From Lachnospiraceae bacterium (lineage in GTDB: Bacteria > Bacillota > Clostridia > Lachnospirales > Lachnospiraceae): a DNA stretch of 34,966 nucleotides. Position numbers and translations under genes: made by a program. The stretch's first letter is position 1; each line of letters begins with the position of its first letter. The notes below the pieces were generated by a model. The model worked only from the letters and a program-made list of their open reading frames with translations, was not told the origin of the DNA and ran no database searches. Location of the stretch: contig JAQYAV010000076.1 in assembly GCA_029338675.1 (NCBI GenBank), positions 1 to 34,966 of the forward strand, read 5' to 3'. Positions 18,196-34,924 of the stretch are shown one piece after another.

Positions 18196-18921
18196 TTATT
18201 CAACCCTAACACATATAGCCGAATAATTATCGCTATTATTATCTAATCTTCCTTCCACAATATCAGCCATCTTAGCAAGCCATTCCTCTGAAGTTTTGGT
18301 ATTGTTAAGACATTCTAGCATCTCGTTTTCTAATATATTCTCCCAAAAGCCATCTGTCATCAATACAAACTGGTGCTTTCCATCTCTTTCTAATATAGCA
18401 CTTTTGTCAAAGGATTTTTTTCCAAAGACAGTTCCCATTGCCCGAAGCAATTTATTTCTATCATCATGCTTTCTCACATCAGCATCTGTTATTTCTCCTG
18501 AATCTAACAGCTGCTGAACTATACTGTGGTCTTTAGTTCTTTCATATCTAGAACCATCTCCAAAGATATGATACACCCTGCTATCTCCAATATGTGCCCA
18601 TTTCATTTGTTCATCTGTAACAACAAGAGCCGCCACCGTAGTTTTCATCCCGTTACTTACAGAGCATTCCCTTTGAAGCTCCAACAATTTATCCTGAGCC
18701 ATGTTAAATGCATCATCTAAAAACATAGGATAATCGCCTTTTTCTTCAAAGCATTTAGCTATAGTATCTCCTACAAGCTTAGAAGCAATTTCTCCACTTT
18801 CATGTCCTCCAAGTCCGTCACATACCACAAAGCATTTTGAAGAATCATTAACAGACATAGTTACATAATCTTCATTAACTTGTCTTCCTCCTATTTTAGA
18901 AACCATAGCATAATCAAACAT
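18196..18921 (-). CDS. PP2C-family Ser/Thr protein phosphatase, first copy
   Basis: Cytosolic metal-dependent phosphatase, 241 residues, of the bacterial PrpC/Stp type that reverses Ser/Thr kinase action. Metal ligands are visible in GGRQVNEDYV (E17, D18), VVCDGLGGHESGE (D35 with the following Gly), AHIGDSRVYH, VLMTDGFWENI and, near the end, NNSDNYSAI. The ATG at 18921 has a GGGAGG site. It follows the repeat-bearing membrane protein gene after 11 bases and is the last gene before the terminator. The natural targets are probably the kinase in this cluster and the proteins it phosphorylates. A second, divergent PP2C lies at 22001-22771, so the system has two phosphatases for one kinase. Confidence 0.92.
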   Translation of the reverse strand: MFDYAMVSKIGGRQVNEDYVTMSVNDSSKCFVVCDGLGGHESGEIASKLVGDTIAKCFEEKGDYPMFLDDAFNMAQDKLLELQRECSVSNGMKTTVAALVVTDEQMKWAHIGDSRVYHIFGDGSRYERTKDHSIVQQLLDSGEITDADVRKHDDRNKLLRAMGTVFGKKSFDKSAILERDGKHQFVLMTDGFWENILENEMLECLNNTKTSEEWLAKMADIVEGRLDNNSDNYSAICVRVE

Positions 18922-18932
18922 ATGAAGCCTCC

Positions 18933-19763
18933 CTATATTGTTTCATCTGAATGAACAATTACTATTTCGTATAACACCTTTACTTTTCTCGCTAAACTTT
19001 CAGCTGTCTCGCCAACTAATATTGCAGTGTTAGCCTTTGTTTCAGCAGAAGTAGTTTTCTGCATATATTCTTTCACATTTTTATCTATTTCATCAATATT
19101 CTGACTATTAAAGCCATCTACATTATCAGACAACACTGATGTTTCCTGTTCTTCCGAAAGTACTGATGTTTCCTGTTCTTCCGAAAGTACTGATGTCTCC
19201 TGTTCTTCCGAAAGCACTGATGTCTCCTGTTCTGACGAAAGCACCGATGTCTCCTTTTCATTATCTAATGCAAATTTGAGATTAGGTTCCTTTTCTTCAT
19301 TACCTACTATTACCTCGCCTAACTTGCCCGACACTAAAAGACCTGTTTCCGGTTCAGTTTCTTCAACAGCAAAATCAACATTTACATTGTTATTTACCAC
19401 AGAATCAGTTTCACCAAAGGTAAGATTAGTATCTGTTTCACCTATTAAATCCCCTGTATGTTTCTTCTTTAACGGTCCAGGAGTTTTATCCTTTTTAGAC
19501 TTGTCAACAAAAGCATTTGACGATGATTGTTTAACCTTAATTCGTTCACTCTGTCTAGAATAGTATTTTTCTTTTTCCTTTTCAGAGTATGACACCTTTT
19601 TTTCATTCTTCTTTTTATCTTTCCTAACAAAACGCATTCCCACAAGCTCACTTATAACCTTAGGAATATTCAACCAAAAGAACAAAAATATAGAAAGGAC
19701 CAGGAAGAATATTGCTACCATAAGGCCGCCATTATAAAATAATCTGTACATATTATTATCCAT
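18933..19763 (-). CDS. Membrane-anchored protein with five ETSVLS repeats, function unknown
   Basis: A 276-residue protein with one N-terminal membrane helix (about 12-33, VAIFFLVLSIFLFFWL), a basic stretch (45-105, many Lys/Arg), then an acidic region. Residues 170-214 contain five consecutive 9-residue units, QETSVLSEE or close variants, with threonines at 172, 181, 190, 199 and 208. Similar short motifs appear outside the array: GETDSVV (118-123), ETGLLVSG (139-146) and NTAILVGET (245-253). Each places a hydrophobic residue three positions after the threonine, which suits FHA domains once the threonine is phosphorylated. The C-terminal 25 residues (ESLARKVKVLYEIVIV) look folded. The ATG at 19763 lies two bases after the kinase stop, with GGAGGAG inside the kinase end. 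I do not recognise the family; a phosphorylated scaffold is the inference. Confidence 0.85.
   Translation of the reverse strand: MDNNMYRLFYNGGLMVAIFFLVLSIFLFFWLNIPKVISELVGMRFVRKDKKKNEKKVSYSEKEKEKYYSRQSERIKVKQSSSNAFVDKSKKDKTPGPLKKKHTGDLIGETDTNLTFGETDSVVNNNVNVDFAVEETEPETGLLVSGKLGEVIVGNEEKEPNLKFALDNEKETSVLSSEQETSVLSEEQETSVLSEEQETSVLSEEQETSVLSDNVDGFNSQNIDEIDKNVKEYMQKTTSAETKANTAILVGETAESLARKVKVLYEIVIVHSDETI
19122..19256 (-). repeat. In-frame 27-bp tandem repeat, five units
   Basis: Five 27-base units, each coding nine residues with the invariant core ETSVLS. The units differ at only a few bases (mainly third positions, plus the outer units), which points to recent expansion. The array is inside the membrane-anchored protein gene and never breaks frame. 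Confidence 0.92.
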
Positions 19764-19765
19764 GG

Positions 19766-21946
19766 CTACTCCTCCATTCCTTCGTTTATTTCTTTCTCAG
19801 TGTCCGACTCCTCAATATTAGTATCAGGCTTATCACCTAAGCTGCCTCCGGACGAGAGCATCTCCAACACATCTTTTCTTCTATTCCAAGTTTTACTTGA
19901 GTTTATATCAGAAACACTACAGCCTTCTTCATAAACCTTAAGTAAATCACTTAATTCATTGTTGCAGGTTCTTATCCAGGTTGTTGGATCCTGATGCTTT
20001 CTTTCACAAAATGTATATATATAATCTAAGTGATTTGCATACACTTTATTGCTAAAAACATTATCCTTCCCCACAATCTTTTCAGCTTCTTCATAAGTAG
20101 CAATAACGTCATCATACTTATCAATAGCACTATAGAAAAATGCCTTTTTCATCATCTTATTATAATACGAAGTATTATATACGTTATCATTTGTTCCGCC
20201 TATACCATTATTTGCGTCATTTTCAACCTTTATGGTCAAAATGTTCAAATATTCCTCACAGGCATTCACTCCCTTTGACACAAATATGGTCTTGTTTGTA
20301 TCGTCATCTCCAATATTTCGTATTATAGTTTCATAAATTGAAGTAAGATTGTCATAGTACGCAAAATAATAATCATTTACATCAATATCTTTACCATTAT
20401 ATTCTTCCAAATCGTGTAAGGCCTGTTCCATAACAGTCTCAGCTTTTTCTGCAACCTCACCATATGTGGCATTTCCAGCATATATTTTTCCAATTATTTT
20501 GTAATTTATGAATTTGTCAATATTCTGATTATTAAATGCACTCATATTATAATCAGCGAACTTACCAACCTCATCCATCAATTCTGCTGGCTTATAATTT
20601 GCGCTAGACAGAATAAGAGATACAGACCTGTAATATTTTGCAATTTCTCCGTAATCCTTATCCTCTTCATCTATCTTATTAAAATATGTATGTGCCATCT
20701 TATAGTCTGATAATTCTATAAAATATGCCATAGCCACCTTATATAATACGGCATCATTTTTATTAACACCATCGTATCCGGCTTTTATTCTGTTGGTAAC
20801 AACTGTCAAACCAGTTTCTAGCTCAAGCTTTCTGTTACCCTCTTCATCTATCATATTGTAGCCATCAATATATGTCTGAATAAATTTCTCATACGCCTCT
20901 GAATCTCGTCCATCTAACTCAATTGCATGCTTATAATCCTCTGCCGCTTTAACTAAATCACCCTCAACACGATCTTCATCACCTTCCTCGATATAGGAAT
21001 TATAGTTTTCGAGTTTTATCTCGTTCATCTTATTATAACCAAATAAAGATGTAAGACCACCAATCACCATAAAAGTTACAGAAGCTATAAATCCATGTAA
21101 TTTTAGTTTGTTGCTTCTTTTATGCGCATCATCTAACTCATCGTAATGCTCTAGCGCATACATTAATTCTGCACAATTTTGGTATCTATCCTCTGGATTA
21201 GGCTGAGTACATTTTAAGATGATTTTTTCTAAGCCTGATGAAAGCTCTGGATTCCACTCCCTAATAGGCTTCATCTCATATGGTGGTTCACAAGGGTTCA
21301 TACCAGTAACAATGTGATATAAGGTTGCACCCAGATTATATATATCTGTTCTCGCATCAGTATTATATATTCCCCTACCCTTTGAATCACCAAACTGTTC
21401 CGGAGCAGCATAACCTCTTGTTCCAAGGGCAGTTGTATCGGCATTATCTTCTATCTCATATTCCTTTGCAGTACCAAAGTCAATAAGCTTAACTCCACCT
21501 TCAGGTCTAATCATAACATTAGAAGGTTTCATATCTCTATAAATAATAGGTGGATTCATATTATGCAAGTAATCGACTGCACTTGCCAACTGAATACCCC
21601 ACACAATAACCAACTCCTGCGGCTGTGCACCTTCTTTTTTGAGTCGATTGCTAATTGTTGTACCCTCAATAAAGTCCATTACAACATAGATTATCTCATC
21701 CTGGTTAATGATATCTACAATTCTAGGCAATACAGGATGATCTACATTTTTAAGAATATTGGCTTCTCGTTCTAAGGCTTTTAATAATGTTGTTATATCC
21801 TTCTTACCATCATTTTTTATCTCCTTAACAGCCCACTGTTTGTTAAGTCGATTATCTCTGGCAAGGTATACAATAGACATTCCGCCTCGTCCAACTTCTT
21901 TCCATATTTCATATTTTCCGTCTAATACTGTTCCTTCTTTTGTCAT
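19766..21946 (-). CDS. Transmembrane Ser/Thr protein kinase with C-terminal TPR-like domain
   Basis: Hanks-type kinase of 726 residues. Kinase features: glycine loop GRGGMSIVYLA (19-29), ATP lysine K41 in AVKEI, catalytic loop YRDMKPSN (D138; the usual His of HRD is Tyr), DFG at 156-158, activation loop with T171, T172 and T176, and GTRGYAAPEQFG. One membrane helix lies at about 284-304. The outer part (310-700) has TPR-like helical repeats, for example GDLVKAAEDYKHAIELDGRD, and no PASTA repeats, so it differs from the PrkC/StkP cell-wall sensors. The true start is the ATG at 21946 with GGAGAGG upstream. A TTG at 21961 in frame lies on that ribosome site itself. It sits between the second PP2C and the repeat protein, with a hairpin upstream. 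Confidence 0.95.
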   Translation of the reverse strand: MTKEGTVLDGKYEIWKEVGRGGMSIVYLARDNRLNKQWAVKEIKNDGKKDITTLLKALEREANILKNVDHPVLPRIVDIINQDEIIYVVMDFIEGTTISNRLKKEGAQPQELVIVWGIQLASAVDYLHNMNPPIIYRDMKPSNVMIRPEGGVKLIDFGTAKEYEIEDNADTTALGTRGYAAPEQFGDSKGRGIYNTDARTDIYNLGATLYHIVTGMNPCEPPYEMKPIREWNPELSSGLEKIILKCTQPNPEDRYQNCAELMYALEHYDELDDAHKRSNKLKLHGFIASVTFMVIGGLTSLFGYNKMNEIKLENYNSYIEEGDEDRVEGDLVKAAEDYKHAIELDGRDSEAYEKFIQTYIDGYNMIDEEGNRKLELETGLTVVTNRIKAGYDGVNKNDAVLYKVAMAYFIELSDYKMAHTYFNKIDEEDKDYGEIAKYYRSVSLILSSANYKPAELMDEVGKFADYNMSAFNNQNIDKFINYKIIGKIYAGNATYGEVAEKAETVMEQALHDLEEYNGKDIDVNDYYFAYYDNLTSIYETIIRNIGDDDTNKTIFVSKGVNACEEYLNILTIKVENDANNGIGGTNDNVYNTSYYNKMMKKAFFYSAIDKYDDVIATYEEAEKIVGKDNVFSNKVYANHLDYIYTFCERKHQDPTTWIRTCNNELSDLLKVYEEGCSVSDINSSKTWNRRKDVLEMLSSGGSLGDKPDTNIEESDTEKEINEGMEE

Positions 21947-21966
21947 AATATACCTCTCCAAAAATC

Positions 21967-21984
21967 AAAACCCCTACGGGTTTT
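21967..21984 (-). terminator. Small hairpin with T-tract between PP2C and kinase genes
   Basis: AAAACCC (21967-21973) and GGGTTTT (21978-21984) form a 7-bp stem with a 4-base loop. Leftward, it is followed by GATTTTTGG and then the kinase ribosome site. It looks like a weak intrinsic terminator or attenuator inside the operon that could lower kinase relative to phosphatase and FHA products. Confidence 0.55.
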
Positions 21985-22000
21985 AATTTTGCCTACATAC

Positions 22001-22771
22001 CTATTGCACGTTCATAACAAGTACTGAAATATTGTCTGTCTCCCCACGAGATTTCACAAGTTCTGTCAAATATATACATCCATATTTAATCTTTTCTTCA
22101 TCAGTAGCATTAGCAGGTCCAAGCCTCTTAATTATCTCTTCCTCACTAATCTGGTGTCTAAAGCCATCAGAGCAAAGCATATAGGATGCCCCTGGAGTAA
22201 TCACACCTTTAACAAACTCCGGACTTACAACAGGAGAAGCACCAACACACTGTAGCAATACACTTCTTCTCGAATCTACTTTAGCCTGTTCTGGTGTCAT
22301 CCTTCCAGCTGCAATTTCTCTAGCAACAAATGTTTGATCATTAGTAAGCTGTCTTAGCTTATTAGTCATTTCATATATTCTACTATCACCAATATGCATA
22401 ATATAATAATAATTATCATAGAACAAAATAGCAGATAAGGTAGTTCCAAGCATTATATTCTTCTGTTTTCCATATTCTCCTAATCGAAGATTCTGTTCCT
22501 GAACAATAAGATTCCACTGATTAATCAATAGCTCTTCACTATGTCTTCCGTCCTCATAATATGGTATAAAATCCTTATCAAACCAATTAAGCATTGCCAC
22601 AATAACTTCCTTACTGGCAAGCTCTCCCTTTGAAAGGCCTCCCATTCCGTCACACACAACGCCAAATGCAACCTTTCCCTTCTTTGTTTCCACAACCTTT
22701 GCAACAAGTGCATCTTGATTTGTATCTTTTGTTATACCAATATCAGTGTGATATGAAACATTAAAATTCAT
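22001..22771 (-). CDS. PP2C-family Ser/Thr protein phosphatase, second copy
   Basis: Metal-dependent phosphatase of 256 residues, divergent from the copy at 18196. Ligand motifs are TKDTNQDALVA near the N-terminus, VVCDGMGGLSKGE (D41), MHIGDSRIYEM, MLCSDGFRH and GETDNISVLV at the C-terminus. The ATG at 22771 is one base after the stop of the upstream FHA gene, with GGGAGA inside that gene's end, so the two are translationally coupled. It precedes the kinase gene. Having phosphatase, FHA readers and kinase in one operon supports a self-contained Ser/Thr phosphorylation circuit. Which of the two phosphatases acts on the kinase is unknown. Confidence 0.93.
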   Translation of the reverse strand: MNFNVSYHTDIGITKDTNQDALVAKVVETKKGKVAFGVVCDGMGGLSKGELASKEVIVAMLNWFDKDFIPYYEDGRHSEELLINQWNLIVQEQNLRLGEYGKQKNIMLGTTLSAILFYDNYYYIMHIGDSRIYEMTNKLRQLTNDQTFVAREIAAGRMTPEQAKVDSRRSVLLQCVGASPVVSPEFVKGVITPGASYMLCSDGFRHQISEEEIIKRLGPANATDEEKIKYGCIYLTELVKSRGETDNISVLVMNVQ

Positions 22772-22772
22772 T

Positions 22773-23930
22773 CTAGTCTCCCTTTCTTAAAAGAAAAGTA
22801 AATTCTTCATCTCCCATTTGAACAATAGTTCTATTTTTAAGAAGCATCTCTTTACCCGGTTCTACCATCACTCCATTCAAATATGTATGATTCGTAGAAT
22901 TATTATCAATTATATAATTCACGCCATCATGCTGAACAATTGTACAATGAACTCTACTTATGGCTGAATTATTTTCTATTGTATAGTCTGCATTTACACG
23001 AGACTTTCCTATTTTAAAATCGTTTTTTGTTATGTTAATAACTTCGCCAGTTCTTTTTCTTATCATATGTGGAACAGGTTTAACATTAAGCTGTCCAATT
23101 ATGGAACCTTGAATACTTCTTGAAATCGGCTCCGCATATTTGTTGCCAAGCGTTTCTAGAGAAGAAGTTATTTTCTCTGTACTACCGACAATATTAACAT
23201 CCTCTACAGCTTGTGTCATATTGCCAAGTACTGTTTCTTCAATTCTTGAATACGTTGGTGTCTCAGCAACGTTATTGATGACTGCCTCAGGAACGTTTGT
23301 TTCAGGAATATTAGTTTCTAAAATATTCCTTTCAGAAAGAAGCATAACCCCTGTTTCCTTACTGTAAAAGCACCCTATATCCTGCAATTGTTTTTCAACA
23401 AGAAATCTAAGCCTAGAAAGAGTAAAGTCACTAGAATTAATCATGGCAAATAATTTTGCCACATAATTATCAGTATCCTGGTCGCTATACTTTACAACAG
23501 ATAAAACAAATCTCAAGAGCCCTGCAATATCAGCCAATGGCAAAGCCTCCTGCTTTATTGGCATTAATAAAAACTTCAACGTGCCAGTTGCATTGTCATA
23601 ATATATCTTGTTTATATCTGTCACAACATAACTAATAGGAATGCCTTTCATCCCTAATTCAAATACATCTATTATTCCGCTAACTATTGCCAATACGCTT
23701 TTCTTATCTAACACAGCATTAAGATGCATAGCTAACGTAGTACTGTAATTGACATAAGAAACAATACTTACTCCATTAACACTATTATTTACTTGAAAAG
23801 GAATAATATCTGGTAACCCATTTATCTTATTAAAAACGGATTCATCATATATTTCCGAAGGCTGTAATAAATACGAAACACTTTCTATTCCATTTTGATT
23901 AGAACTGCAAAAATTGTATTGTCTCATCAT
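22773..23930 (-). CDS. FHA-domain protein with Lachnospiraceae-type N-terminal domain (first paralogue in the window)
   Basis: A 385-residue cytosolic protein. The N-terminal 1-190 region shares a pattern with the neighbouring larger FHA protein: a PISYVV/PLTYILL strand pair, a segment ending LPVES or MPIKQ, and a C-terminal FTLSRLRFLVE helix. This may be the domain called DUF6382, but I cannot confirm the number. A linker (190-295) contains threonine motifs such as KETGVMLLSE and EETVLGN. The FHA domain occupies 296-382: GKSR (308-311), SAISRVH (322-328), NNSTNHTYLNG (343-353). It would bind phosphothreonine peptides, presumably made by the kinase encoded downstream. Two adjacent ATGs (23930 and 23927) share a GGGGAGGG site; either may be used. 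Confidence 0.9.
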   Translation of the reverse strand: MMRQYNFCSSNQNGIESVSYLLQPSEIYDESVFNKINGLPDIIPFQVNNSVNGVSIVSYVNYSTTLAMHLNAVLDKKSVLAIVSGIIDVFELGMKGIPISYVVTDINKIYYDNATGTLKFLLMPIKQEALPLADIAGLLRFVLSVVKYSDQDTDNYVAKLFAMINSSDFTLSRLRFLVEKQLQDIGCFYSKETGVMLLSERNILETNIPETNVPEAVINNVAETPTYSRIEETVLGNMTQAVEDVNIVGSTEKITSSLETLGNKYAEPISRSIQGSIIGQLNVKPVPHMIRKRTGEVINITKNDFKIGKSRVNADYTIENNSAISRVHCTIVQHDGVNYIIDNNSTNHTYLNGVMVEPGKEMLLKNRTIVQMGDEEFTFLLRKGD

Positions 23931-23979
23931 TATCCCTCCCCTGTAATGAATATCAACACATTTATTTCATATTACAAAT

Positions 23980-24011
23980 TATGCAACCAAAAGGGTATTT
24001 CTGGTTGCATA
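23980..24011. repeat. Hairpin between the two FHA genes
   Basis: TATGCAACCA (23980-23989) and TGGTTGCATA (24002-24011) form a perfect 10-bp stem with a 12-base loop. Leftward the tail is ATTTGTAATA, a poor T-tract. It may be a weak terminator or an RNA stability element; its ATGCAAC arm resembles the hairpin at 3981-4001. Confidence 0.6.
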
Positions 24012-24053
24012 ATATTTACTCTTATTCAAATACTACATACAGTAGCATATCTA

Positions 24054-25817
24054 CTATCTAATCTTGAAAATGAATTCCTCATCACCAAGTGTTATCAAAG
24101 AATCGTGTGTAAGCATGACCTCTTCTCCATCTTCAACCATCTTACCATTTACATATGTATGATTAGTTGACTTATTGTCTTTGATATAACACACATCATC
24201 CTTCTCAATAATAATAGCATGCTGTCTGCTTATTGCACTATTATCTCTTACTGTATAATCTACGCCACGTGTAGCCTTTCCAATCTTGAATGGAACTTTC
24301 ATAATCATTACACGCTCTTCATTGTTAACACGAACCAAATATGGTGCAGCCTTTGGTACATTCTTAATGCTATTCATAACAGCGGTATCTGCAATTCCTG
24401 CAACAGTGGCAGCAGGTTTAGATTCTTCAACTGTCTCTGGCTTAACATCCTCTACAACTGGAACTGCAATGTTTTCTGTTGGTGCATCTTCACTAACATT
24501 CTCTGTTGCCTCAGCTTCATGAGTACTTTCTTCTTTCTCAATTCCAGCTTCAACATTCTGAATAATAGCCGCTCTGTTAACCTTAACAACATTCTTCTTA
24601 TTCTTAGAAAATGGATCAGTATCCTTTATGTTCTTTGAAGAAGTTTCATATTCAATACTCTCCTTAGCATTTGGTACCTCACCAACTAATTCTTTAATTC
24701 TATTCTTGATAACATCAATGTCAGTTTCCTTCTTATGAGTAGTACCTGTTCCACCCAATAAGATTCCACTTGTTGCATTGTTCTCAAATTCATTTATTCC
24801 AAGGATATCATCATTATCCTGTGCAATACTTAACTTAGTCTTCTTTGATGGCTTAACAAATTCTTCCTTAGCAGCTGGTACTTCTTCAGTATTACTTGCT
24901 TCAGTTTTTTCCTCAGCTACATTATCTGCTTCAACTGACTTTGTTTCTTCCTCGGCAGCGTTATCTTCTTCAGCTGACTTTTCTTCTTCCTTAACTGTAC
25001 TATCTTCTTCAACTGGCTTTGTTTCTTCCTTCACTGCTGGTATATCATCTTCCTCGTCAAGCTTTATTGCCGAGATGCCTTCTGGAATAACTTCCTCTTC
25101 GTCCTCTTCATCTTCCTCATCATCGCCGATCTCAGGAAGAGGCTCATCGCTTTGTCCTAACGAATTCATAATACCAGAAACAGTATCTTCAGACGAAGAC
25201 TTAACAACCTCAACACCATCTGCATCAATAGTACTTACATCCTCGTAAGCAACATCTGCTTCCTCCATAAGAGCTTCGCAAAGTCCAATTAAATCTCTTA
25301 ATGTAAATGAATCTCCATTGATATATGTAATAAGCTTACCCACATAATTAAGATCTTCTTCAACATCAAACTGCATATTTGCAATAAGCTGTCTAACAAA
25401 TCCCTTAAACTCTGTAGCCAAAGAGCCCTTGCTCTCAACTGGCAAACATATAAATTGTATATCTAATGCATCCTCATCAACATAAATAAAGCTTCTATTA
25501 AGTAAAATATATGTTAAAGGAATAGTCTGTTCCTTCAAAGAAACAAGTCCATTCGCAACATTACGTATTACAGACAATACTTGTTCACATGAAACCTTAG
25601 TCTTAATAAAATCATCTAACGAAATTTTGTTAGTAATATCGTAAGTAAGATAATCATAGTCCTCATCTTCTTCGTATATTATTCCAATGAGCTCTTTTAC
25701 TTCATTCTCCTCACAATAATCCAAAACATCTTCATCAAGTTCAGTTTCCTCACCCATTATGTAGGTAAGATATTTCTCGTCTTGAATGTTTCGAACTTTG
25801 AAATTAAATGTTCTCAT
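24054..25817 (-). CDS. Large FHA-domain protein with acidic repeat linker (second paralogue)
   Basis: A 587-residue cytosolic protein with the same plan as the preceding FHA protein. Residues 1-190 match its N-terminal domain (IPLTYILLNRSFIYVDEDA, FTLRDLIGLCEALM). A long linker follows; residues 230-245 are nearly all Asp/Glu, and 262-313 form four degenerate 13-residue units of the VKEETKPVEEDST type. Threonine motifs such as NNATSGILLGGTG (347-357) also occur. The FHA domain is at 497-587, with GKATR (513-517), SAISRQH (527-533) and NKSTNHTYVNG (548-558). The ATG at 25817 has an AGGAGGG site. It stands between mltG and the smaller FHA gene, so the pair probably arose by tandem duplication. 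Likely role: phosphothreonine reader or kinase substrate. Confidence 0.9.
   Translation of the reverse strand: MRTFNFKVRNIQDEKYLTYIMGEETELDEDVLDYCEENEVKELIGIIYEEDEDYDYLTYDITNKISLDDFIKTKVSCEQVLSVIRNVANGLVSLKEQTIPLTYILLNRSFIYVDEDALDIQFICLPVESKGSLATEFKGFVRQLIANMQFDVEEDLNYVGKLITYINGDSFTLRDLIGLCEALMEEADVAYEDVSTIDADGVEVVKSSSEDTVSGIMNSLGQSDEPLPEIGDDEEDEEDEEEVIPEGISAIKLDEEDDIPAVKEETKPVEEDSTVKEEEKSAEEDNAAEEETKSVEADNVAEEKTEASNTEEVPAAKEEFVKPSKKTKLSIAQDNDDILGINEFENNATSGILLGGTGTTHKKETDIDVIKNRIKELVGEVPNAKESIEYETSSKNIKDTDPFSKNKKNVVKVNRAAIIQNVEAGIEKEESTHEAEATENVSEDAPTENIAVPVVEDVKPETVEESKPAATVAGIADTAVMNSIKNVPKAAPYLVRVNNEERVMIMKVPFKIGKATRGVDYTVRDNSAISRQHAIIIEKDDVCYIKDNKSTNHTYVNGKMVEDGEEVMLTHDSLITLGDEEFIFKIR
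24879..25034 (-). repeat. Degenerate 13-residue acidic repeat in the large FHA protein
   Basis: Four in-frame units of 39 bases code 13-residue blocks rich in Glu, Lys and Val (residues 262-274, 275-287, 288-300, 301-313). The units are clearly related but have diverged more than the 27-bp array at 19122. They probably form a flexible charged spacer before the FHA domain. Confidence 0.7.
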
Positions 25818-25863
25818 AGCTTGCCCTCCTACTTGCGTCTATATAAATTGCTAAATATATTCT

Positions 25864-26946
25864 TTACTCTTCTGACTCCTCATCATCTGATTCATCATCT
25901 GGGCCACCTATTATTCTAGAATCCTCATGTTCTTCATAAGTTTCTGTAAATATATGTGTTCCCGCTGCTTCATCATCTACGTGATAATAGAAGTATGAAT
26001 GTTCTTCCGGATTCAATACAGCCATAATACACTGTAAACCAGGGTTGCATATTGGACCTACTGGTAATCCCGAATTAATGTAAGTATTATATGGAGAATC
26101 AATCTCTAAATCCTCATATAACACCTGTTCTTTATCATATAATCCCTTTGTTATAGGGTATAAAACTGTTGGACACATCTGAAGCTTCATATCAGATGCT
26201 AAACGATTATTAATAACACCTGCAATAGTTGCTCTTTCTTTTTGAACCTTAGCCTCTCTTTCAATAATAGAAGCTCTTGTTAAAAGCTCAAAAGAGCTAT
26301 AGCCTAACTCTTCAGCCTTTGCCTTTATCTCATCTGAATAGTAATTATCAAATGTCTCAAGCATCCACTCTACTAAAGAGGTAGCTGTTGTGTCCTCATA
26401 TATATCATAAGTAGCTGGGAATAAATATCCCTGTAACTTATATTCAACATTAGCACCAGCTGGTACATCAGCTAAATATGGAAAATCATTAGCTGTAACT
26501 GAATTAACTGCGTTGAGGAAATCCGATGATGAGCAAATTCCTTCTGATTCACAAGTCTCTGCAATCATCTCTATTGTATATCCTTCTGGAACAACTAACT
26601 TCTTGATTGGCTCATTCGTATCCTTTGCAGGAGCAAGAACATCCATCATCTCCAAAGTATTCATTCCTGTGTTAAGTGTATACGTACCACTTGATAACCT
26701 TCCTCTGTAATCGTCTGATTTCTGAAGTCGTCTTACAAATGCCGTCTTATACTTTATCAAGCCCTTCTTCTGAAGTATCTCTGCAATCTGATTAGCTGAG
26801 GCTCCTTCTGGAATCTCAACTACAATATCAACGCCCTCTCGATGTTCAGTTCCTTTATATTCAACCATATATGCATCATAATAATCCTTCACATAATTAT
26901 AAGTAACGACTGAAAGTGCAAATACTGCCACTCCCAAAAGTATCAT
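25864..26946 (-). CDS. mltG: Endolytic transglycosylase MltG (YceG-like)
   Basis: Membrane-anchored lytic transglycosylase that cuts nascent peptidoglycan strands and so sets their length. Its 360 residues begin with one membrane helix (MILLGVAVFALSVVTYNYV). A LysM-like subdomain follows (VVEIPEGASANQIAEILQKK). The catalytic region has LQGYLFPATYDIY, the catalytic glutamate in ASIIEREA (first Glu), and the closing GLPVGPICNPGLQ. The acidic tail (DDESDDEESEE) is unusual. I chose the ATG at 26946 because AAAGG lies at good spacing; a GTG at 26964 has a GGGG site and remains possible. It is the first gene of the leftward signalling cluster, 46 bases before the large FHA gene. Confidence 0.92.
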   Translation of the reverse strand: MILLGVAVFALSVVTYNYVKDYYDAYMVEYKGTEHREGVDIVVEIPEGASANQIAEILQKKGLIKYKTAFVRRLQKSDDYRGRLSSGTYTLNTGMNTLEMMDVLAPAKDTNEPIKKLVVPEGYTIEMIAETCESEGICSSSDFLNAVNSVTANDFPYLADVPAGANVEYKLQGYLFPATYDIYEDTTATSLVEWMLETFDNYYSDEIKAKAEELGYSSFELLTRASIIEREAKVQKERATIAGVINNRLASDMKLQMCPTVLYPITKGLYDKEQVLYEDLEIDSPYNTYINSGLPVGPICNPGLQCIMAVLNPEEHSYFYYHVDDEAAGTHIFTETYEEHEDSRIIGGPDDESDDEESEE

Positions 26947-27013
26947 TTTAATAACCTTTACCACTGTTGTTTCCCCACTATTCTAGTTTACATAATACCA
27001 ACGCAAAACATAC

Positions 27014-27642: not shown

Positions 27643-28893
27643 TTGAAAAAACCATTTGTAACAAAAGAGCAGATTGAAGAAATTGTAAAAACATATCCTA
27701 CACCTTTTCACATTTATGACGAAAAGGCAATCAGAGAAAATGCCAGAAAATTAAAACAAGCTTTCTCTTGGAACAAAGGTTATAAAGAGTATTTTGCAGT
27801 TAAGGCTACTCCTAATCCAACTATTTTAAGAATTCTTAACGAAGAAGGATGTGGAACAGACTGTTCATCATACACGGAGCTTCTTATGTCTAAAAAGGTA
27901 GGAATCACTGGAAGCAACATTATGTTTTCTTCAAATGATACTCCTGCAGAAGAATTCAAATTAGCAAGAGAATTAGGTGCAACAATTAACTTAGATGATT
28001 ATACTCACGTTAAGTTCCTTAACGATACTTGTGGTATTCCAGAAACAATAAGCTGTAGATACAATCCTGGTGGAACTTTTTCAATTTCAACAACTATCAT
28101 GGATAATCCTGGGGATGCAAAATATGGTATGCCTAAGGATCAGCTATTTAAGGCATATGTAGAATTAAAGGAGCTTGGTGCTAAGAAGTTTGGTTTACAT
28201 TCTTTCCTTGCTAGTAACACCGTTACTAACGAGTACTATCCAACTCTTGCCAAGATGCTTTTCCAGGTTGCTGTTGAATTAAAGGAGCAGACTGGAATTG
28301 AATTAAGCTTTATTAATTTATCAGGTGGTGTTGGTATTCCATACACTCCAGACAAGGAGCCAAATGATATTCTCGCAATCGGCGAGGGTGTTAGAAAGGC
28401 CTTCGAGGAGGTCCTTGTTCCTGCTGGTTTAGGTGATGTTAGTATCTACACTGAATTAGGAAGATTTATGTTAGCTCCTTACGGACATTTAGTTACTAAA
28501 GCTATCCATGAGAAGCACATTCATAAGGAATATATTGGTGTTGATGCATGTGCAGTTAATCTCATGAGACCTGCTATGTACGGTGCATACCATCATATCA
28601 CAGTTTTAGGCAAAGAAAATGATCCTTGCGATCATACATATGATATCACAGGATCACTTTGTGAGAACAACGACAAATTCGCAATTGACAGACAATTACC
28701 TAAAATTGATATGGGTGATTATCTTGTAATTCACGACACTGGTGCTCATGGTTTTGCTATGGGTTATAACTATAACGGCAAATTAAAATCTGCCGAGCTT
28801 CTACTTTGCGAAGACAAATCTGTTAAGATGATTCGTAGAGCAGAAACTCCTGAAGATTATTTTGCTACTTTAGATGGTTATTGGGAAGTATAA
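27643..28893 (+). CDS. lysA: PLP-dependent diaminopimelate decarboxylase family enzyme
   Basis: Fold type III PLP decarboxylase of 416 residues; the likely reaction is meso-diaminopimelate to lysine. The PLP lysine is K54 in FAVKATPNP. Other family sites are NLSGGVGIPY (phosphate-binding glycine loop), YTELGRFMLAPYG, and GSLCENNDKFAIDRQLP with the active-site cysteine. The motif after LHSF is SNTVTNEYY rather than the usual His-x-Gly-Ser-Q, so it belongs to a divergent branch and specificity is less than certain. The start is a TTG at 27643 behind a strong GGGAGGTG site. The last 16 bases overlap the end of the convergent leftward gene (28878), and no terminator lies between them. Confidence 0.82.
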   Translation: MKKPFVTKEQIEEIVKTYPTPFHIYDEKAIRENARKLKQAFSWNKGYKEYFAVKATPNPTILRILNEEGCGTDCSSYTELLMSKKVGITGSNIMFSSNDTPAEEFKLARELGATINLDDYTHVKFLNDTCGIPETISCRYNPGGTFSISTTIMDNPGDAKYGMPKDQLFKAYVELKELGAKKFGLHSFLASNTVTNEYYPTLAKMLFQVAVELKEQTGIELSFINLSGGVGIPYTPDKEPNDILAIGEGVRKAFEEVLVPAGLGDVSIYTELGRFMLAPYGHLVTKAIHEKHIHKEYIGVDACAVNLMRPAMYGAYHHITVLGKENDPCDHTYDITGSLCENNDKFAIDRQLPKIDMGDYLVIHDTGAHGFAMGYNYNGKLKSAELLLCEDKSVKMIRRAETPEDYFATLDGYWEV

Positions 28894-31433
28894 GTATACA
28901 TAGTATTGCTATATTTGCTTAATTCATTCTTGAAACTATCTCTTGATATTTTTACTTCTTCACCCTCAACTGGATCATAGTATCTTACGTGGGTGGAGTT
29001 GTAACTTATCAATAATACATATCTACCATCTTGTATCCTTGCCGTAATCGGCACATCTCTATCCAGAAAATAAAGTGCTATATCAAGATCAATTCCAGAT
29101 ACATTTATTCCTACACCACTTGTATATTTATCAAATGCATCTTCAAAGCTTTCACAAGCCATAATCTTGTCATACTCAGCATCATTTTCCAAGTATTCAA
29201 CGCACATATATGCACATGTAAGAAGTGATTCATCTATGCTATCACATTTCTTTTCACGTATTTCATCAGCAATAGTATTATATGTTACAGCATCTATGCT
29301 ACGATAAATTGTATTTCCGTTGCTATCAACAACTAATCCAGATTCAATCTCCTCAACATCAATTATTGATTTGCCTGCACTAGTGTACTCGCCATAGTAT
29401 CCAACATTATTAAATACATAAAATGTGTTTTCTTTTGTACTTGTTTTAATATTTATATCATTGTATATTTCATTTTCTTTGTTTTTAGTAATAACGTAAG
29501 TTGGACTATCACTAATATACATATTAGAAGGCAATTGTAAATCAATCTGATTCATCTCAAGCTTGTCATAGTTGTTTGCCACCCTTACAATGTCATCCTT
29601 TTCATCAGACTTATACATAATAAAGTCAGCTTCAGTTGACACATAAAAGTTATTTTGTTTAATAGATCTTTGAAGATATATTTTCTCGTCCTGGACTTTG
29701 GCATTCATTACATAAATTCCAGCTTTTGAATAGTTTTTAATATTTTTTCCATCCATTCCAACAATATTGATTTCATAAAGTGGAAGAATCGGTTCACCAT
29801 CCGATGAAACAATTATATCTTCTTTTTTCGCCACACCATATATCATATCATTTCCCACAAATCCACTCGCAAGCAAACGTTCATCAGCTTTACATTCAAT
29901 AACAAATTCCTCACCTGTTTCAAAATTACGAAGATATATTTGAGTTACATCTTCAGGAACATCTGTATTAGGATACGCAACAACTCTGCCGTTTTCTGAT
30001 ACTAAATATTTACCAGATGATATATCTTCTACAATAACTGCCTGTTCCATTTTGTTTATGTCAAACTTATACAAGGATTCATCCAAAAGGTAATAAAAAA
30101 AGTTGTTGTTTACATCAAAATAAGTGAATCTACCTACCTCTTGTCTCATTACATCATATGTTTCATCGCAGGAAACAAAAGCCAATTCCTTTATCTTTGA
30201 ATCCTCTGCTGTGTAGCTATATAAGGCAATACCATTCTTACCCTCATTATCACCTCGATTTATGTATCCATACACAACAAAAGACATATTTCCATCATTA
30301 TCTACATCAGATATTTTTATTCCGTGCCCCGCATTCAAAGTTCTTACATCAGTGTAATTGCCCTTTATGTAACTAAATACACTCGTAAGCTTAGAAAGTT
30401 TATAGTCATACATCCACAACTGACCATTTTTCACGAAAGCAAGTTTGTTAGCATCTTCAGACGCCCTAAACTCAAGTAATTCTGTATCTGCCACTCCAAG
30501 AGAAATACTATTTCTCTCCTTGCTGATATAATTCATATCAAAGAAGCTTTCCTGATATCTATCAAAAGCCAAAAGCTCTACATTCTCTTTGTCTTTATTA
30601 TATAAAGCACTGTAAAATTCATTTATTGTATAGTAATGTGCTTCCTTTGTGTTAATTGACTGCACAACATAAGAAAGCTTTACAACAGCAAATTCATTAT
30701 CAATTTCTGTTATTGTAGGAATAATTCCAGTCACAGGAATAAGAACTAAATCTCCATAGCTTATCAATGAATAGCTTGAATACAAATCTACGTGAGACAA
30801 ATTTTCCTCTTCTGATATTCTTCCTGGCTTTAAGTTATCATATACTAGATTACCTTCACTTTCATTTACCTCTTTTATGAAGGTTGTATTATGAAAATCA
30901 TTTGCAAAATCTATTATTTTCTTTGCGTACTGCTCTTTTAGTCTTACTATTCTAGTATAATATTTTACAGTTTCTTCTTCATCCTCGCCACTCAAGCAAA
31001 ATACAAGAACGTATTCCTGATTAAGATCCATATCCATTCTAAATCTTATCTTAAATACATCATATCCATCTTTGTTCCCAGTCGACTCGATATCGCCATT
31101 TTCAACAAGCGAATCGCCACTTATTCTACGAAGCTCATATTTGAAGTGTTTACCTATTTTTTCCTGATCCTTGACAAGTATATCGATACCACCTTCTTCA
31201 TTAAGTGGTACGATGCATTCTCTCATAAGACTTGTGGACATAGTCATAGTATACCCCTGCATTCTATTGATTACTCGTCCATCAAATTCACAATATACAA
31301 GTGGAAGCTTCGGCTCATCCATTTCACGAGCAGCATATTTATAATCTGCATTATTTAATTTATTTACAAAAAAAGCTGTGCTCACTGCAACTACAATGAA
31401 CACAATCACTCTTAAAATTATTTTCTTAATCAT
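28878..31433 (-). CDS. Large membrane-anchored extracytoplasmic protein with degenerate C39-like C-terminus
   Basis: An 851-residue protein of unknown function. An N-terminal membrane helix (about 4-24, ILRVIVFIVVAVSTAFFV) with a lysine-rich start implies export with the bulk outside. The middle shows beta-propeller-like strand repeats (KLAFVKNGQLWMYDYKLSKL, KISDVDNDGNMSFVVYG with an FG-GAP-like calcium loop). The last 110 residues resemble a C39-type papain-fold domain: SLLTCAYMCVEYL followed by VPITARIQDGRYVLLISYN and YYDPVEGEEVKISRDSF. The expected catalytic Cys aligns with Ser and the His of the GH motif is Arg, so it is probably inactive. I chose the ATG at 31433, four bases after the stop of the upstream gene. 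An ATG at 31490 would add 19 residues but has no ribosome site. Confidence 0.75.
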   Translation of the reverse strand: MIKKIILRVIVFIVVAVSTAFFVNKLNNADYKYAAREMDEPKLPLVYCEFDGRVINRMQGYTMTMSTSLMRECIVPLNEEGGIDILVKDQEKIGKHFKYELRRISGDSLVENGDIESTGNKDGYDVFKIRFRMDMDLNQEYVLVFCLSGEDEEETVKYYTRIVRLKEQYAKKIIDFANDFHNTTFIKEVNESEGNLVYDNLKPGRISEEENLSHVDLYSSYSLISYGDLVLIPVTGIIPTITEIDNEFAVVKLSYVVQSINTKEAHYYTINEFYSALYNKDKENVELLAFDRYQESFFDMNYISKERNSISLGVADTELLEFRASEDANKLAFVKNGQLWMYDYKLSKLTSVFSYIKGNYTDVRTLNAGHGIKISDVDNDGNMSFVVYGYINRGDNEGKNGIALYSYTAEDSKIKELAFVSCDETYDVMRQEVGRFTYFDVNNNFFYYLLDESLYKFDINKMEQAVIVEDISSGKYLVSENGRVVAYPNTDVPEDVTQIYLRNFETGEEFVIECKADERLLASGFVGNDMIYGVAKKEDIIVSSDGEPILPLYEINIVGMDGKNIKNYSKAGIYVMNAKVQDEKIYLQRSIKQNNFYVSTEADFIMYKSDEKDDIVRVANNYDKLEMNQIDLQLPSNMYISDSPTYVITKNKENEIYNDINIKTSTKENTFYVFNNVGYYGEYTSAGKSIIDVEEIESGLVVDSNGNTIYRSIDAVTYNTIADEIREKKCDSIDESLLTCAYMCVEYLENDAEYDKIMACESFEDAFDKYTSGVGINVSGIDLDIALYFLDRDVPITARIQDGRYVLLISYNSTHVRYYDPVEGEEVKISRDSFKNELSKYSNTMYTYTSQ

Positions 31434-31437
31434 AGGT

Positions 31438-31785
31438 CTAAAAGAACTTTCTCCTTCTTTTATATCTGCTACGCCTAACATAAAATTCATTACATAGCAT
31501 TACTTCAATAAGTTGTTTTAACATCTCATCTGTGTCATTATATTTTACTTTGTCATAAATGCCTCTTGCTATCTCTAGCATAGATTCTTTGTCTGGGTAA
31601 AGTGAAAACATCAAACTTCCCTCATACTCGAGTTTGTCGCATTCGTTTTCAACCAATACCATAATTATCCTTGCCTTCGCAGGATACATTCTTAAAAGAT
31701 ATTCTCTGTCAGCATATAATTCTCTTTCATCTACATACTGAAGCTTTGGAGTTATAAATCTATTTTCATATACGCTATTATCCAT
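31438..31785 (-). CDS. Hypothetical 115-residue protein
   Basis: Not recognised. A soluble, mostly helical protein: YVDERELYADREYLLRMYP, then KARIIMVLVENECDKLEY, then SMLEIARGIYDKVKYNDTDE, then EVMLCNEFYVRRSRYKRRRK. The very basic tail (RRSRYKRRRKFF) could touch membrane lipid or nucleic acid. The ATG at 31785 has a GAGGT site. The stop at 31438 lies four bases before the start of the large membrane protein, and the AAGGAG within its last codons may serve that gene's initiation, so the two are probably co-expressed and functionally linked. Confidence 0.75.
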   Translation of the reverse strand: MDNSVYENRFITPKLQYVDERELYADREYLLRMYPAKARIIMVLVENECDKLEYEGSLMFSLYPDKESMLEIARGIYDKVKYNDTDEMLKQLIEVMLCNEFYVRRSRYKRRRKFF

Positions 31786-32971: not shown

Positions 32972-33069
32972 AGTATCTACCGTTACTGAAAACTTATAAA
33001 AAGCTATAAACTTTTATGTTTCATTCCTATTTCAATGAGTATGCTTTTGCGATTATAAGTAATACGCTA
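32972..33069 (-). promoter_or_regulatory. pfkA upstream region, possible promoter at the IS boundary
   Basis: About 100 bases between pfkA and the end of the tnpB frame. A minus-strand TATAAT lies at 33057-33052, but no good -35 box is placed 16-18 bases further upstream; that position falls in tnpB-tail sequence. A small AT hairpin (about 32995-33016) lies nearer to pfkA. The element end therefore lies close to, or within, the pfkA promoter. Confidence 0.3.
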
Positions 33070-33147
33070 CTCACAAGTTCTTGTACTCTCCATAGGCATA
33101 AATTCCGAATTAACGTATCCGTACATATTTGCATTAGCTTTTAAGTG

Positions 33148-34311
33148 CTAAGATACAAATTGTTCTCCATAAGCTTTAAGATTTAATGCTGCTTGGAAAT
33201 CCCTGTCTATAACATTTCCACAGTCACATTTATAAATCCTATCAGAAAGTTTCAAGTCTTTTTTGATATTTCCACAGCAACTACATAACTTTGATGATGG
33301 ATAAAATCTATCGGCTACAATAAGCTGAATACCTTTATCTTTACATTTATACTCTAGTTGTCTATGAAATTCATAAAATCCTTGACATTGAACAGCTTTG
33401 GATAAATGTTTATTTTTCATCATTCCACTAACATTTAAGTCCTCAATACATATAAATCTTGGTTTTCGATTTACTATTTCAGTTGTAGTCTGATGTAAAT
33501 AATCATTGCGGATGTTTGATAATCTGTGATTTACTTTTAATAAAAGTCTTTCCTTTTTGATTACATTATTAGTTTTACAGTATTTCCCTTTCTTTTTATT
33601 TTTCTCATATGAACGAGATATACTACGCTGTAACCTGCGTTTTCGTCTTTCCAATTTTTTAACTATCTGAGATTTATTTATATTCTTATAGGTATTACCA
33701 TCAGAACATATAGCTAAATCCTTTATTCCTAAATCTATTCCAATACCAGATTTGTTAAGTTTACTCTTACATTCATCTGTATCAATGCCTACAGAAATCC
33801 ACCAGTTAATACCATCAAATGTAATTCTTGGATTATAACATTTACAATCCGTAGGAATGCGATTATGTTCAGCAAGTCTTATATGATTAAGCTTCTGTTT
33901 ATTAGCTTTTTTGCTAATGGCAAATCCTTCCACTTTAACATGTGTATCCGTAAACTTTATCTTTATCGGATCTTGAAAAAATGATGGTTTCGATTTTTTC
34001 TTTGATTTATATTTAGGGAATTTACTCAATCCCTTAAAGAATCTCTTATAGGATTCACAGGCATCTTTAATGGCTTGTTTAGTTACATTGTTAGAAACAT
34101 TATTAAGCCATGCATATTCGTCTGTATGTTTAAGAGTTGTAAATTCTTTTCTCAAATCATTATCGGAAATAAACTTGCCACCATTTTCATGGTTTTCTTG
34201 TTCTCTTGCTAATGCCCAGTTATACGCAAATCTTGCAGTTCCTGCATATTGGAATAATTTAGTTATTTGTTTGTTATTGGGTATCAACATTACCTTTATT
34301 GTTTTTATCAT
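33148..34311 (-). CDS. tnpB: IS607-type TnpB RNA-guided nuclease
   Basis: A 387-residue TnpB, the transposon-encoded, guide-RNA-directed DNA endonuclease ancestral to Cas12. RuvC residues are D193 (GIDLGIKDLA), E290 (CIEDLNVSGM) and D371 (DRDFQAALN). The zinc ribbon is C343-x2-C346 with C362-x-C364. The N-terminal helix-turn-helix-like region (KVMLIPNNKQITKLF, then RFAYNWALAREQ) is typical. All catalytic residues are present. The chosen ATG at 34311 has AAGGTGAT eight bases upstream and overlaps the end of tnpA by 38 bases; an ATG at 34317 and a GTG at 34320 are alternatives. After the TAG stop the same frame stays open for 26 codons to 33069, with a tail like that of longer TnpB proteins. 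Confidence 0.92.
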   Translation of the reverse strand: MIKTIKVMLIPNNKQITKLFQYAGTARFAYNWALAREQENHENGGKFISDNDLRKEFTTLKHTDEYAWLNNVSNNVTKQAIKDACESYKRFFKGLSKFPKYKSKKKSKPSFFQDPIKIKFTDTHVKVEGFAISKKANKQKLNHIRLAEHNRIPTDCKCYNPRITFDGINWWISVGIDTDECKSKLNKSGIGIDLGIKDLAICSDGNTYKNINKSQIVKKLERRKRRLQRSISRSYEKNKKKGKYCKTNNVIKKERLLLKVNHRLSNIRNDYLHQTTTEIVNRKPRFICIEDLNVSGMMKNKHLSKAVQCQGFYEFHRQLEYKCKDKGIQLIVADRFYPSSKLCSCCGNIKKDLKLSDRIYKCDCGNVIDRDFQAALNLKAYGEQFVS

Positions 34312-34924
34312 TTTCATCACCTTCTTCGATAAGTTCTTTTACAAGTTTTCGTGCTTTGCCAGCTCTTTTACCTTGTAGTTTACAACTGAATGCAGTTATT
34401 ATTTGAACTAAATCTTCAACTAATTCTTGTTGTTCAGGTTTCTCGGTATTATCCATGATCTCAATTTCACAATTATATAAAGAAGCAATGTATTCTACTA
34501 ATTCAAATCCAAATCTCAACAATCTATCTTTATATAAAACAACAACCTTTTCAACTTTGTTTTGAGTTATTAGTTTAATAAGTTCCTTTAATCCTTTTTT
34601 CTTATAATTTATTCCAGAACCTATATCACTTATTATTTCAAATGGTTGTCCTTTGGCTATTAGATATGTTCTTACATTTTCTATCTGTCTTTCTAAATCA
34701 TCTTTTTGTTTATGACTAGAGACTCTACAATAACCAATTGTAACTCTATTAAGATTAGGCTTAACATTCATCACTTGATTTAATTGTTCATGTGAATAAT
34801 ACCTATATCCATTAGTAGAAGTGTGATGTGGATGTAATTTACCATTAGCATCCCAATTTCTTAACGTTTGTGCTGATACTCCCAATATTTTTGAAAACTC
34901 ATTGATAGAATAATACTTACTCAT
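34274..34924 (-). CDS. tnpA: IS607-type serine recombinase (TnpA)
   Basis: Transposase of the small serine recombinase class, 216 residues. An N-terminal MerR-like helix-turn-helix (SINEFSKILGVSAQTLRNWD, then GYRYYSHEQL) recognises the element ends. The catalytic domain starts near residue 60 with the nucleophile serine in GYCRVSSHKQKDDLERQ (S69). Conserved arginines follow in KDRLLRFGFELVEY (about 133-146). A Lys/Glu-rich tail (EEGDENDKNNKG) overlaps the start of tnpB. The ATG at 34924 has an AAGGAG site. No truncation or frameshift is visible, so the element may still move. Confidence 0.95.
   Translation of the reverse strand: MSKYYSINEFSKILGVSAQTLRNWDANGKLHPHHTSTNGYRYYSHEQLNQVMNVKPNLNRVTIGYCRVSSHKQKDDLERQIENVRTYLIAKGQPFEIISDIGSGINYKKKGLKELIKLITQNKVEKVVVLYKDRLLRFGFELVEYIASLYNCEIEIMDNTEKPEQQELVEDLVQIITAFSCKLQGKRAGKARKLVKELIEEGDENDKNNKGNVDTQ

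Follow-up and report, generated by a model that had tools for sequence, protein, structure and literature searches.

What does a compact set of Ser/Thr phosphorylation genes do when it lies apart from the secretion machines whose parts it resembles? The set in question occupies the minus strand of contig JAQYAV010000076.1 (C76; G, L and C numbers are our handles for genomes, loci and contigs) of the Lachnospiraceae bacterium assembly GCA_029338675.1, from which we analyzed positions 1 to 34,966, a stretch of 34,966 nucleotides hereafter called the window. The open reading frame (ORF) list of the window contains all seven of its minus-strand genes at 18196-26964, namely mltG, FHA2, FHA1, PP2Cb, KIN, SCAF and PP2Ca, whose families were assigned with Pfam and NCBIfam. 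We consider it probable that they form a stand-alone phospho-docking receptor, anchored in the membrane and assembled from the regulatory components of two classes of type VII secretion system (T7SS), T7SSe and T7SSj. The argument turns on SCAF, a small membrane protein with an array of threonine sites.

25864-26964, minus strand: MltG, endolytic transglycosylase at the head of the conserved neighborhood (YceG, E = 1.3e-83; TIGR00247)
24054-25817, minus strand: FHA2, with a DUF6382 N-terminus, a long acidic linker and a C-terminal FHA domain at residues 511-578 (Pfam, AlphaFold2 model, PDB fold search)
22773-23930, minus strand: FHA1, paralogue of FHA2, with a DUF6382-like N-terminus and a C-terminal FHA domain (FHA, 5e-14)
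22001-22771, minus strand: PP2Cb, the core PPM/PP2C phosphatase of the module (PF13672, 3.6e-10)
19766-21961, minus strand: KIN, transmembrane Ser/Thr kinase (Pkinase, 2.5e-44)
21179-21913, minus strand: kinase domain of KIN (Pkinase domain placement)
about 19832-21028, minus strand: predicted helical TPR-like ectodomain of KIN (structure model)
18933-19763, minus strand: SCAF, one-helix membrane protein with an acidic tail (hydrophobic stretch and TSVL array)
19131-19250, minus strand: TSVL array of SCAF, residues 172-211 (motif count)
18936-18953, minus strand: C-terminal peptide of SCAF (conservation among relatives)
18196-18921, minus strand: PP2Ca, second PP2C, an optional addition (PF13672, 5.3e-16)

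A preliminary description of this DNA had reported seven leftward genes, and every ORF and family was borne out. It had also called them a write/read/erase set with a repeat scaffold; the gene types agree, and phosphorylation and binding within the set are what we infer from them. Its gaps of one or two bases between several pairs proved to hold for only two, PP2Cb/FHA1 (1 base) and KIN/SCAF (2 bases), the others measuring 11 (SCAF/PP2Ca), 46 (MltG/FHA2) and 123 bases (FHA2/FHA1).

SCAF matches no Pfam or NCBIfam family above cut-off. A single hydrophobic stretch lies close to its N-terminus, and of its six T-x-[VI]-L sites five recur every 9 residues. Scaffolds of relatives are alike in the hydrophobic N-terminal stretch, the T-x-[VI]-L sites and the C-terminal peptide, and otherwise little; the pattern [HN][TS]xEx[LIVA] is fitted by the scaffold C-terminus in 69 of 76 relatives. 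We drew most of our counts from 80 named loci, by title mostly Lachnospiraceae or Eubacterium, of which 78 were usable (L165 and L172 were left out, their kinase ORF not having been kept by the greedy ORF caller). Across 76 named scaffolds, the residue three before the Leu of x[VI]L is Thr in 549 of 608 cases and Ser in 11, in tails composed of 9.4% Thr and 8.3% Ser, and Thr is favored against Ser in every one of the 76. Acidic residues make up 48% of the six positions ahead of the array Thr. The sites occur in 411 distinct 10-residue contexts with Thr against 8 with Ser, and they draw on all four Thr codons, so tandem duplication cannot be the full explanation. An earlier, wider set of 52 scaffolds gave the same picture (Thr 324 of 358, Ser 5); it comprises 56 genes downstream of kinases minus L049, L062, L064 and L122, which were judged to be non-scaffold and of which L064 and L122 represent one place. 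The tails of all 56 downstream proteins hold 340 T-x-[VIAL]-L sites where residue shuffles predict 16.2, a comparison that includes non-independent entries (related sequences, tandem copies), and 50 of the 56 carry at least one site. Site density reaches 29 per 1,000 amino acids in scaffolds and 0.2 to 0.75 in the other module proteins.

The excess over shuffles, the bias for Thr over Ser and the number of distinct contexts together argue against a chance origin of the repeats. That the T-x-V-L repeats are an assembly peptide array, or a functionless low-complexity expansion, rather than kinase sites strikes us as highly improbable. Copy number does vary, from 2 to 15 per scaffold among the 76, and counts are inflated by tandem duplication, the window copies being nearly identical in DNA; against this stand the retention of Thr over Ser described above, the irregular spacing of sites in named scaffolds (from 9 to >100 residues) and the fact that FHA genes travel with the array. 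FHA ligands fall into two motif classes, of which pTxx[I/L/V] is one, and phosphothreonine is strictly required, according to the portion of the literature account consulted (PMC8786283). As read from its sequence, the T-x-[VI]-L array fits the ligand pTxx[ILV].

The candidate readers of this array are FHA1 and FHA2. Their FHA domains share 49% identity over 99 amino acids and their N-termini 23% over 198 columns; only FHA2 exceeds the cut-off for DUF6382 (PF19909), as it does for FHA (PF00498), with FHA1 scoring 22.5 bits against a DUF6382 cut-off of 26.7. Residues G513, K514, R517, S530, R531, H533 and N552, which include the Ser, Arg and His of SRxH and the Asn, are invariant in 12 of 12 aligned FHA2 proteins. 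The FHA domain of Rv1747 was the only solved structure found by sequence for these FHA domains. An AlphaFold2 model of FHA2 residues 1-190, the DUF6382 region, shows a protein-kinase fold lacking catalytic motifs, and we predict DUF6382 to be a pseudokinase-like fold. Its top Foldseek match was TraF, a published YukC homologue, but one level with ordinary kinases; EssB/YukC was not among the best 50 fold matches listed. A DUF6382 sequence profile run against PDB chains returned no kinase and a single match, to a retron protein (E = 0.3). We rejected the FHA linkers as a second source of T-x-V-L sites, given the lack of enrichment in named loci (8 sites in 77 FHA1, 11 in 37 FHA2). A wider set of 42 FHA1-like proteins holds 16 sites, 15 of which have D, E or N directly before or one residue away, and a few FHA readers may therefore carry T-x-V-L sites themselves. 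The contigs of relatives (L094, L096, L099, L101, L104-L110) frequently break inside FHA1, perhaps owing to its long low-complexity linker. A DUF6382-FHA protein of the Tad-like locus in the same genome (L077 7832-9502) has its own repeats, SEQERTMFKQNKS, between its domains, with a different threonine motif.

Alignment places the start of KIN, the presumed writer, at an ATG (21946) in preference to the TTG at 21961. K46, R142, D143, N148, D161, F162 and G163 are invariant in 15 of 15 aligned orthologues, and Tyr replaces His in the HRD motif. The preliminary description had given the kinase a TPR-like outer domain and no PASTA repeats, and both points hold: neither Pfam nor NCBIfam yielded a PASTA match in KIN, and its ectodomain is modeled as an all-helical solenoid (mean model confidence, pLDDT, 94) for which Foldseek ranks mainly TPR proteins at the top, at TM-scores that are modest (0.24 to 0.48 among the best ten listed). 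KIN thus differs from the PASTA kinases PknB, StkP and IreK. The NCBIfam profile NF033483 scored KIN at 203.8 bits against a cut-off of 450, covering profile positions 2-273 of 563. On the erasing side, PP2Cb scored 154 bits with NF033484, under its cut-off of 230. Where loci extend four or more genes downstream of the kinase, a PP2Ca turns up among the first five genes on that side in 12 of 21 from the genus and 13 of 51 named ones.

The presence of mltG at the head of the set raises the possibility of a wall-homeostasis circuit like that of IreK or StkP, in which KIN would sense wall stress and control MltG while the FHA proteins relay to wall synthesis. The neighborhood itself is firm, and mltG is a companion gene of the module: in loci reaching at least three genes upstream, it is the next gene before FHA2 in 35 of 39 named and 11 of 11 genus cases, and the window copy is the only full-length one in a whole-genome search, which otherwise gave a partial match of 68 positions on C13. 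A precedent exists in Enterococcus faecalis, where the accessible text reports that IreK phosphorylates MltG at T20, in an extended cytosolic tail (PMC12369325). The IreK site sits in such a tail, however, and the window MltG has about six residues ahead of its membrane helix, as read from the translation; the tail is at most 10 residues in 26 of 37 relatives, the remaining 11 first-start calls giving 12 to 74. These short tails weaken the case for MltG as a kinase substrate, and judging from sequence it is unlikely to be a substrate of the IreK kind; the preliminary placing of mltG at the head of the cluster stands as a neighborhood. Furthermore, KIN is without PASTA repeats, whereas C13 carries a true PASTA kinase next to a PP2C, and BLAST labeled MltG in only 1 of 40 loci, whose flanks were limited. 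We regard the wall circuit as a decidedly unlikely account of the set.

How far is this gene order conserved? We searched 150 family genomes, that of the window included, and found a best kinase with E <1e-60 in 35; there is no sharp gap, with E values of 1e-56 to 1e-49 grading into general kinases. We also searched 31 genomes of the genus, drawn from a larger group. The preliminary expectation that the order would extend beyond close relatives was confirmed in both the genus and the named loci. The genus loci read PP2Ca (optional), giant Ig-like protein, scaffold, kinase, PP2Cb, FHA1, FHA2, mltG: a scaffold match was found in 27 of 31 genomes (of the remaining four, G176 has the kinase ectodomain), PP2Cb and the scaffold in 26 of 26 loci with a kinase ORF, and FHA2 with mltG in 11 of 11 loci reaching three genes upstream. 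Of the 78 named loci, 75 have PP2Cb one or two genes upstream of the kinase and 75 an adjacent scaffold; where they reach far enough, the giant is present in 66 of 68, FHA2 in 36 of 39 and mltG in 36 of 39. The locus sets L092-L118, L040-L043 and L126-L205 share contigs, and their counts are not additive. Eubacterium ruminantium ATCC 17233 (L203) has the complete order, giant gene included.

That giant gene is what the word "self-contained" in the preliminary description overlooked, making it incomplete: a giant Ig-like surface protein usually follows the scaffold on its downstream side, as in 22 of 22 genus loci that extend two genes that way, and in the window genome it appears to be displaced. 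Only 11 bases separate SCAF from PP2Ca, with no giant gene between them. A search with a genus copy found a single giant relative in the window genome, on contig C149, an ORF of 1,672 amino acids with bacterial Ig-like domains and 40% identity to the query. This relative counters an outright loss of the gene, and it may be a paralogue rather than the moved gene. The giant was found in 30 of 31 genus genomes and is absent also from the named loci L195 and L197. The named loci gave 69 giant ORFs, 62 of at least 1,200 amino acids, the shorter ones including contig-edge pieces; 57 of 61 giants longer than 1,300 amino acids end in a hydrophobic stretch and a tail of 4 to 14 residues.

The closest published relatives of the set are parts of type VII secretion systems. 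T7SSe comprises TseD, TseF, TseJ, TseK and TseI, and T7SSj includes TsjD, with a TPR domain, in the available part of the description by Garrett et al. 2024 (PMC11217815). Measured against that part of the text, the window set shares with these systems a membrane kinase, a PPM phosphatase and a DUF6382-FHA protein of the TseJ type, and with T7SSe a single-helix protein that has a short unstructured cytoplasmic stretch. The large Ig-like protein of T7SSe, with a signal peptide and a C-terminal helix, corresponds in type to the giant beside the scaffold in relatives, although not in the window locus. These likenesses concern component type; at the sequence level the comparison is with the WXG100-bearing locus of G095 rather than with the published Tse sequences: KIN is 45% identical to the G095 kinase over 535 columns (E = 1e-139), and PP2Cb is 43% identical to its counterpart there (203 bits). 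The preliminary claim that no described system has this composition must consequently be withdrawn in view of the T7SSe components and the TPR kinase of T7SSj (PMC11217815, as far as the available text extends); this kinship had been overlooked, along with the missing giant, the Thr bias of the T-x-[VI]-L sites and the pseudokinase-like fold predicted for DUF6382. In contrast to both systems, the window set has no adjoining ATPase, WXG100 or ubiquitin-like gene, and it has two FHA proteins, an mltG neighbor and an extra PP2C; the available T7SSe and T7SSj description mentions neither a threonine array nor a pseudokinase fold (PMC11217815).

Could the set nevertheless serve a T7SS, with the secretion core located in another part of the genome and the set regulating secretion and nothing more? 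The same kind of kinase lies near WXG100 in four genomes: in G095 and G147 the kinase and PP2C are about 3 to 4.5 kb from it, in G105 the kinase alone is at such a distance, and G148 has its best-matching kinase about 21 kb off. The window genome, moreover, has a T7SS-like locus on C4 (L079 4866-12538), encoding a vWA protein, a WXG100 protein (89 amino acids), an FtsK-type ATPase (881 amino acids), a second vWA-like protein, a PP2C and a kinase (470 amino acids). That locus resembles the make-up of T7SSc in the accessible description (PMC11217815), and it brings its own kinase, PP2C and vWA, so it does not need the window set, which is best seen as a separate module. No EssC-type ATPase or WXG100 was found on C76; in the whole genome, WXG100 occurs only on C4 and FtsK/SpoIIIE only on C103 and C4. 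In the set of 36 kinase-bearing genomes used for these counts (the 35 above plus G081, with G018, at 2.4e-60, excluded), 17 have no WXG100 match, among them G040, which is 97% complete and shows the order on two contigs; in 4 of the 36, no more than 25 kb separates WXG100 from the kinase, many contigs being too short to judge. BLAST found no relative of WXG100, FtsK-type ATPase, YukD, prepilin peptidase or DUF5702 in the 80 named loci, with few references and often short contigs. Tad-like genes are uninformative by their mere presence in a genome, since DUF5702 and DUF6382 both occur somewhere in 36 of 36; the kinase has a DUF5702 gene no more than 20 kb away in 8 (G088, G073, G008, G130, G030, G099, G051 and G009). 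With no adjoining WXG100 or ATPase and a separate kinase set at C4, we rejected T7SS membership of the window locus, and a purely T7SS-regulatory role appears unlikely.

In a stand-alone receptor of the kind we propose, the helical ectodomain of KIN would sense the envelope, probably in concert with the giant Ig-like surface protein, and the cytosolic domain of KIN would phosphorylate the Thr of the T-x-V-L array on the neighboring membrane scaffold. Once phosphorylated, the array would present many docking points at once to the FHA domains of both FHA1 and FHA2, a step for which the motif match and the Thr-over-Ser bias are in hand. The predicted pseudokinase fold at the N-terminus of the FHA proteins might act as a protein-interaction hub, like YukC/EssB in T7SSb, so that hubs docked at the array would gather an assembly at the membrane. 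PP2Cb, with PP2Ca where present, would undo the phosphorylation. In relatives that have the same genes near T7SS or Tad-like genes, the hub would presumably control those machines.

Several observations weigh against this proposal. The window array is modest, with five near-identical copies and one outlier; outside the clade, some presumed scaffolds have no site (L057, L073) or one (L060, L052, L065), and seven kinase genes have no small gene downstream. The TPR-type ectodomain is narrow in distribution, found in 2 of 291 class genomes, those of the window and a congener, in a sample with only eight others of the family. The Arg after Gly in FHA domains is the usual phosphate contact, and in FHA1 and FHA2 a Lys takes its place, with an invariant Arg three residues later in FHA2. 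A fold shared with kinases is no proof of function, and the contact between FHA and pseudokinase in T7SSb is phosphorylation independent.

Partial precedents exist in other systems. In the T6SS (type VI secretion system) PpkA/Fha/TssL pathway, a phosphothreonine on a membrane protein is made by a membrane-linked kinase and bound by an FHA protein, according to the part of the report available (PMC3953482). That pathway uses one Thr where the window set has an array, and the same text mentions no pseudokinase fusion; the comparison is by description. Rv1747 of Mycobacterium tuberculosis has two FHA domains and a disordered linker, works with PknF and PstP, and forms condensates that the kinase promotes and the phosphatase reverses, in the accessible account (PMC9312465). 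There the FHA module lies within one ABC transporter, whereas in the window set reader and ligand array are separate proteins. The bifidobacterial PFNA operon is described, in the sections available, as pkb2, fn3, aaa-atp, duf58 and tgm, with prpC and fha in some (PMC8430577). It resembles our set in clustering a Ser/Thr kinase of variable outer region, a large FN3 surface protein, a PP2C and an FHA protein; those sections mention no repeat scaffold (PMC8430577). Pfam found no AAA-ATPase, DUF58 or transglutaminase among the seven window genes.

More tentatively, and with rather less than even confidence, we suggest a general plug-in for membrane assemblies, in which kinase-written arrays of up to 15 FHA sites, each array borne by a one-helix scaffold, and pseudokinase-FHA adaptors would make switchable clusters coupled to type VII secretion, to Tad-like genes or, in this clade, to a giant Ig-like receptor alone, so that the "T7SSe components" would not be secretion parts as such. 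LAT and MDC1 are multivalent phospho-scaffolds, and the array would be their bacterial counterpart. The proposal supplies a testable function for TseJ- and TseK-type proteins, so far described by domain content, and a molecular link among T7SSe-type parts through threonine array, FHA reader and pseudokinase hub. A further suggestion is that genes named as part of a T7SS constitute a separable module, and the array gives an easy entry to the question of multivalent phospho-scaffolds in bacteria, for which Eubacterium ruminantium ATCC 17233 offers a named starting strain.

The seven genes need not share one transcript, because the 123-base FHA2-FHA1 gap contains a hairpin and the corresponding gap in genus loci is -4 to 69 bases in 11 of 11 measurable cases.

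23978-24013, minus strand: 15-bp terminator-like hairpin in the FHA2-FHA1 gap (RNA fold)

The gap, folded as 124 nucleotides, reaches -28 kcal/mol (z -2.3 for the whole gap), and seven of the 11 genus gaps fold at 0 to -10.5 kcal/mol. The hairpin is absent from the terminator-scan listing of the window; it may split the cluster into two transcripts.

Elsewhere in the window, 28878-31490 encodes an 870-residue protein with no Pfam or NCBIfam match, whose relatives occur in the same neighborhood of many named loci. An island in the same genome (L076 1896-12271) encodes two more Ser/Thr kinases and an FHA protein, along with a gene that by eye is HSP70-like. A TnpB guide RNA is expected just 3' of the TnpB gene, and a RAGATH-18 RNA (33024-33096, minus strand) lies 51 bases 3' of the TnpB/OrfB-IS605 gene at 33148-34320 (minus strand), an 85% identical, 210-residue piece of which is found in the Tad locus of the genome (L077 4301-4933).

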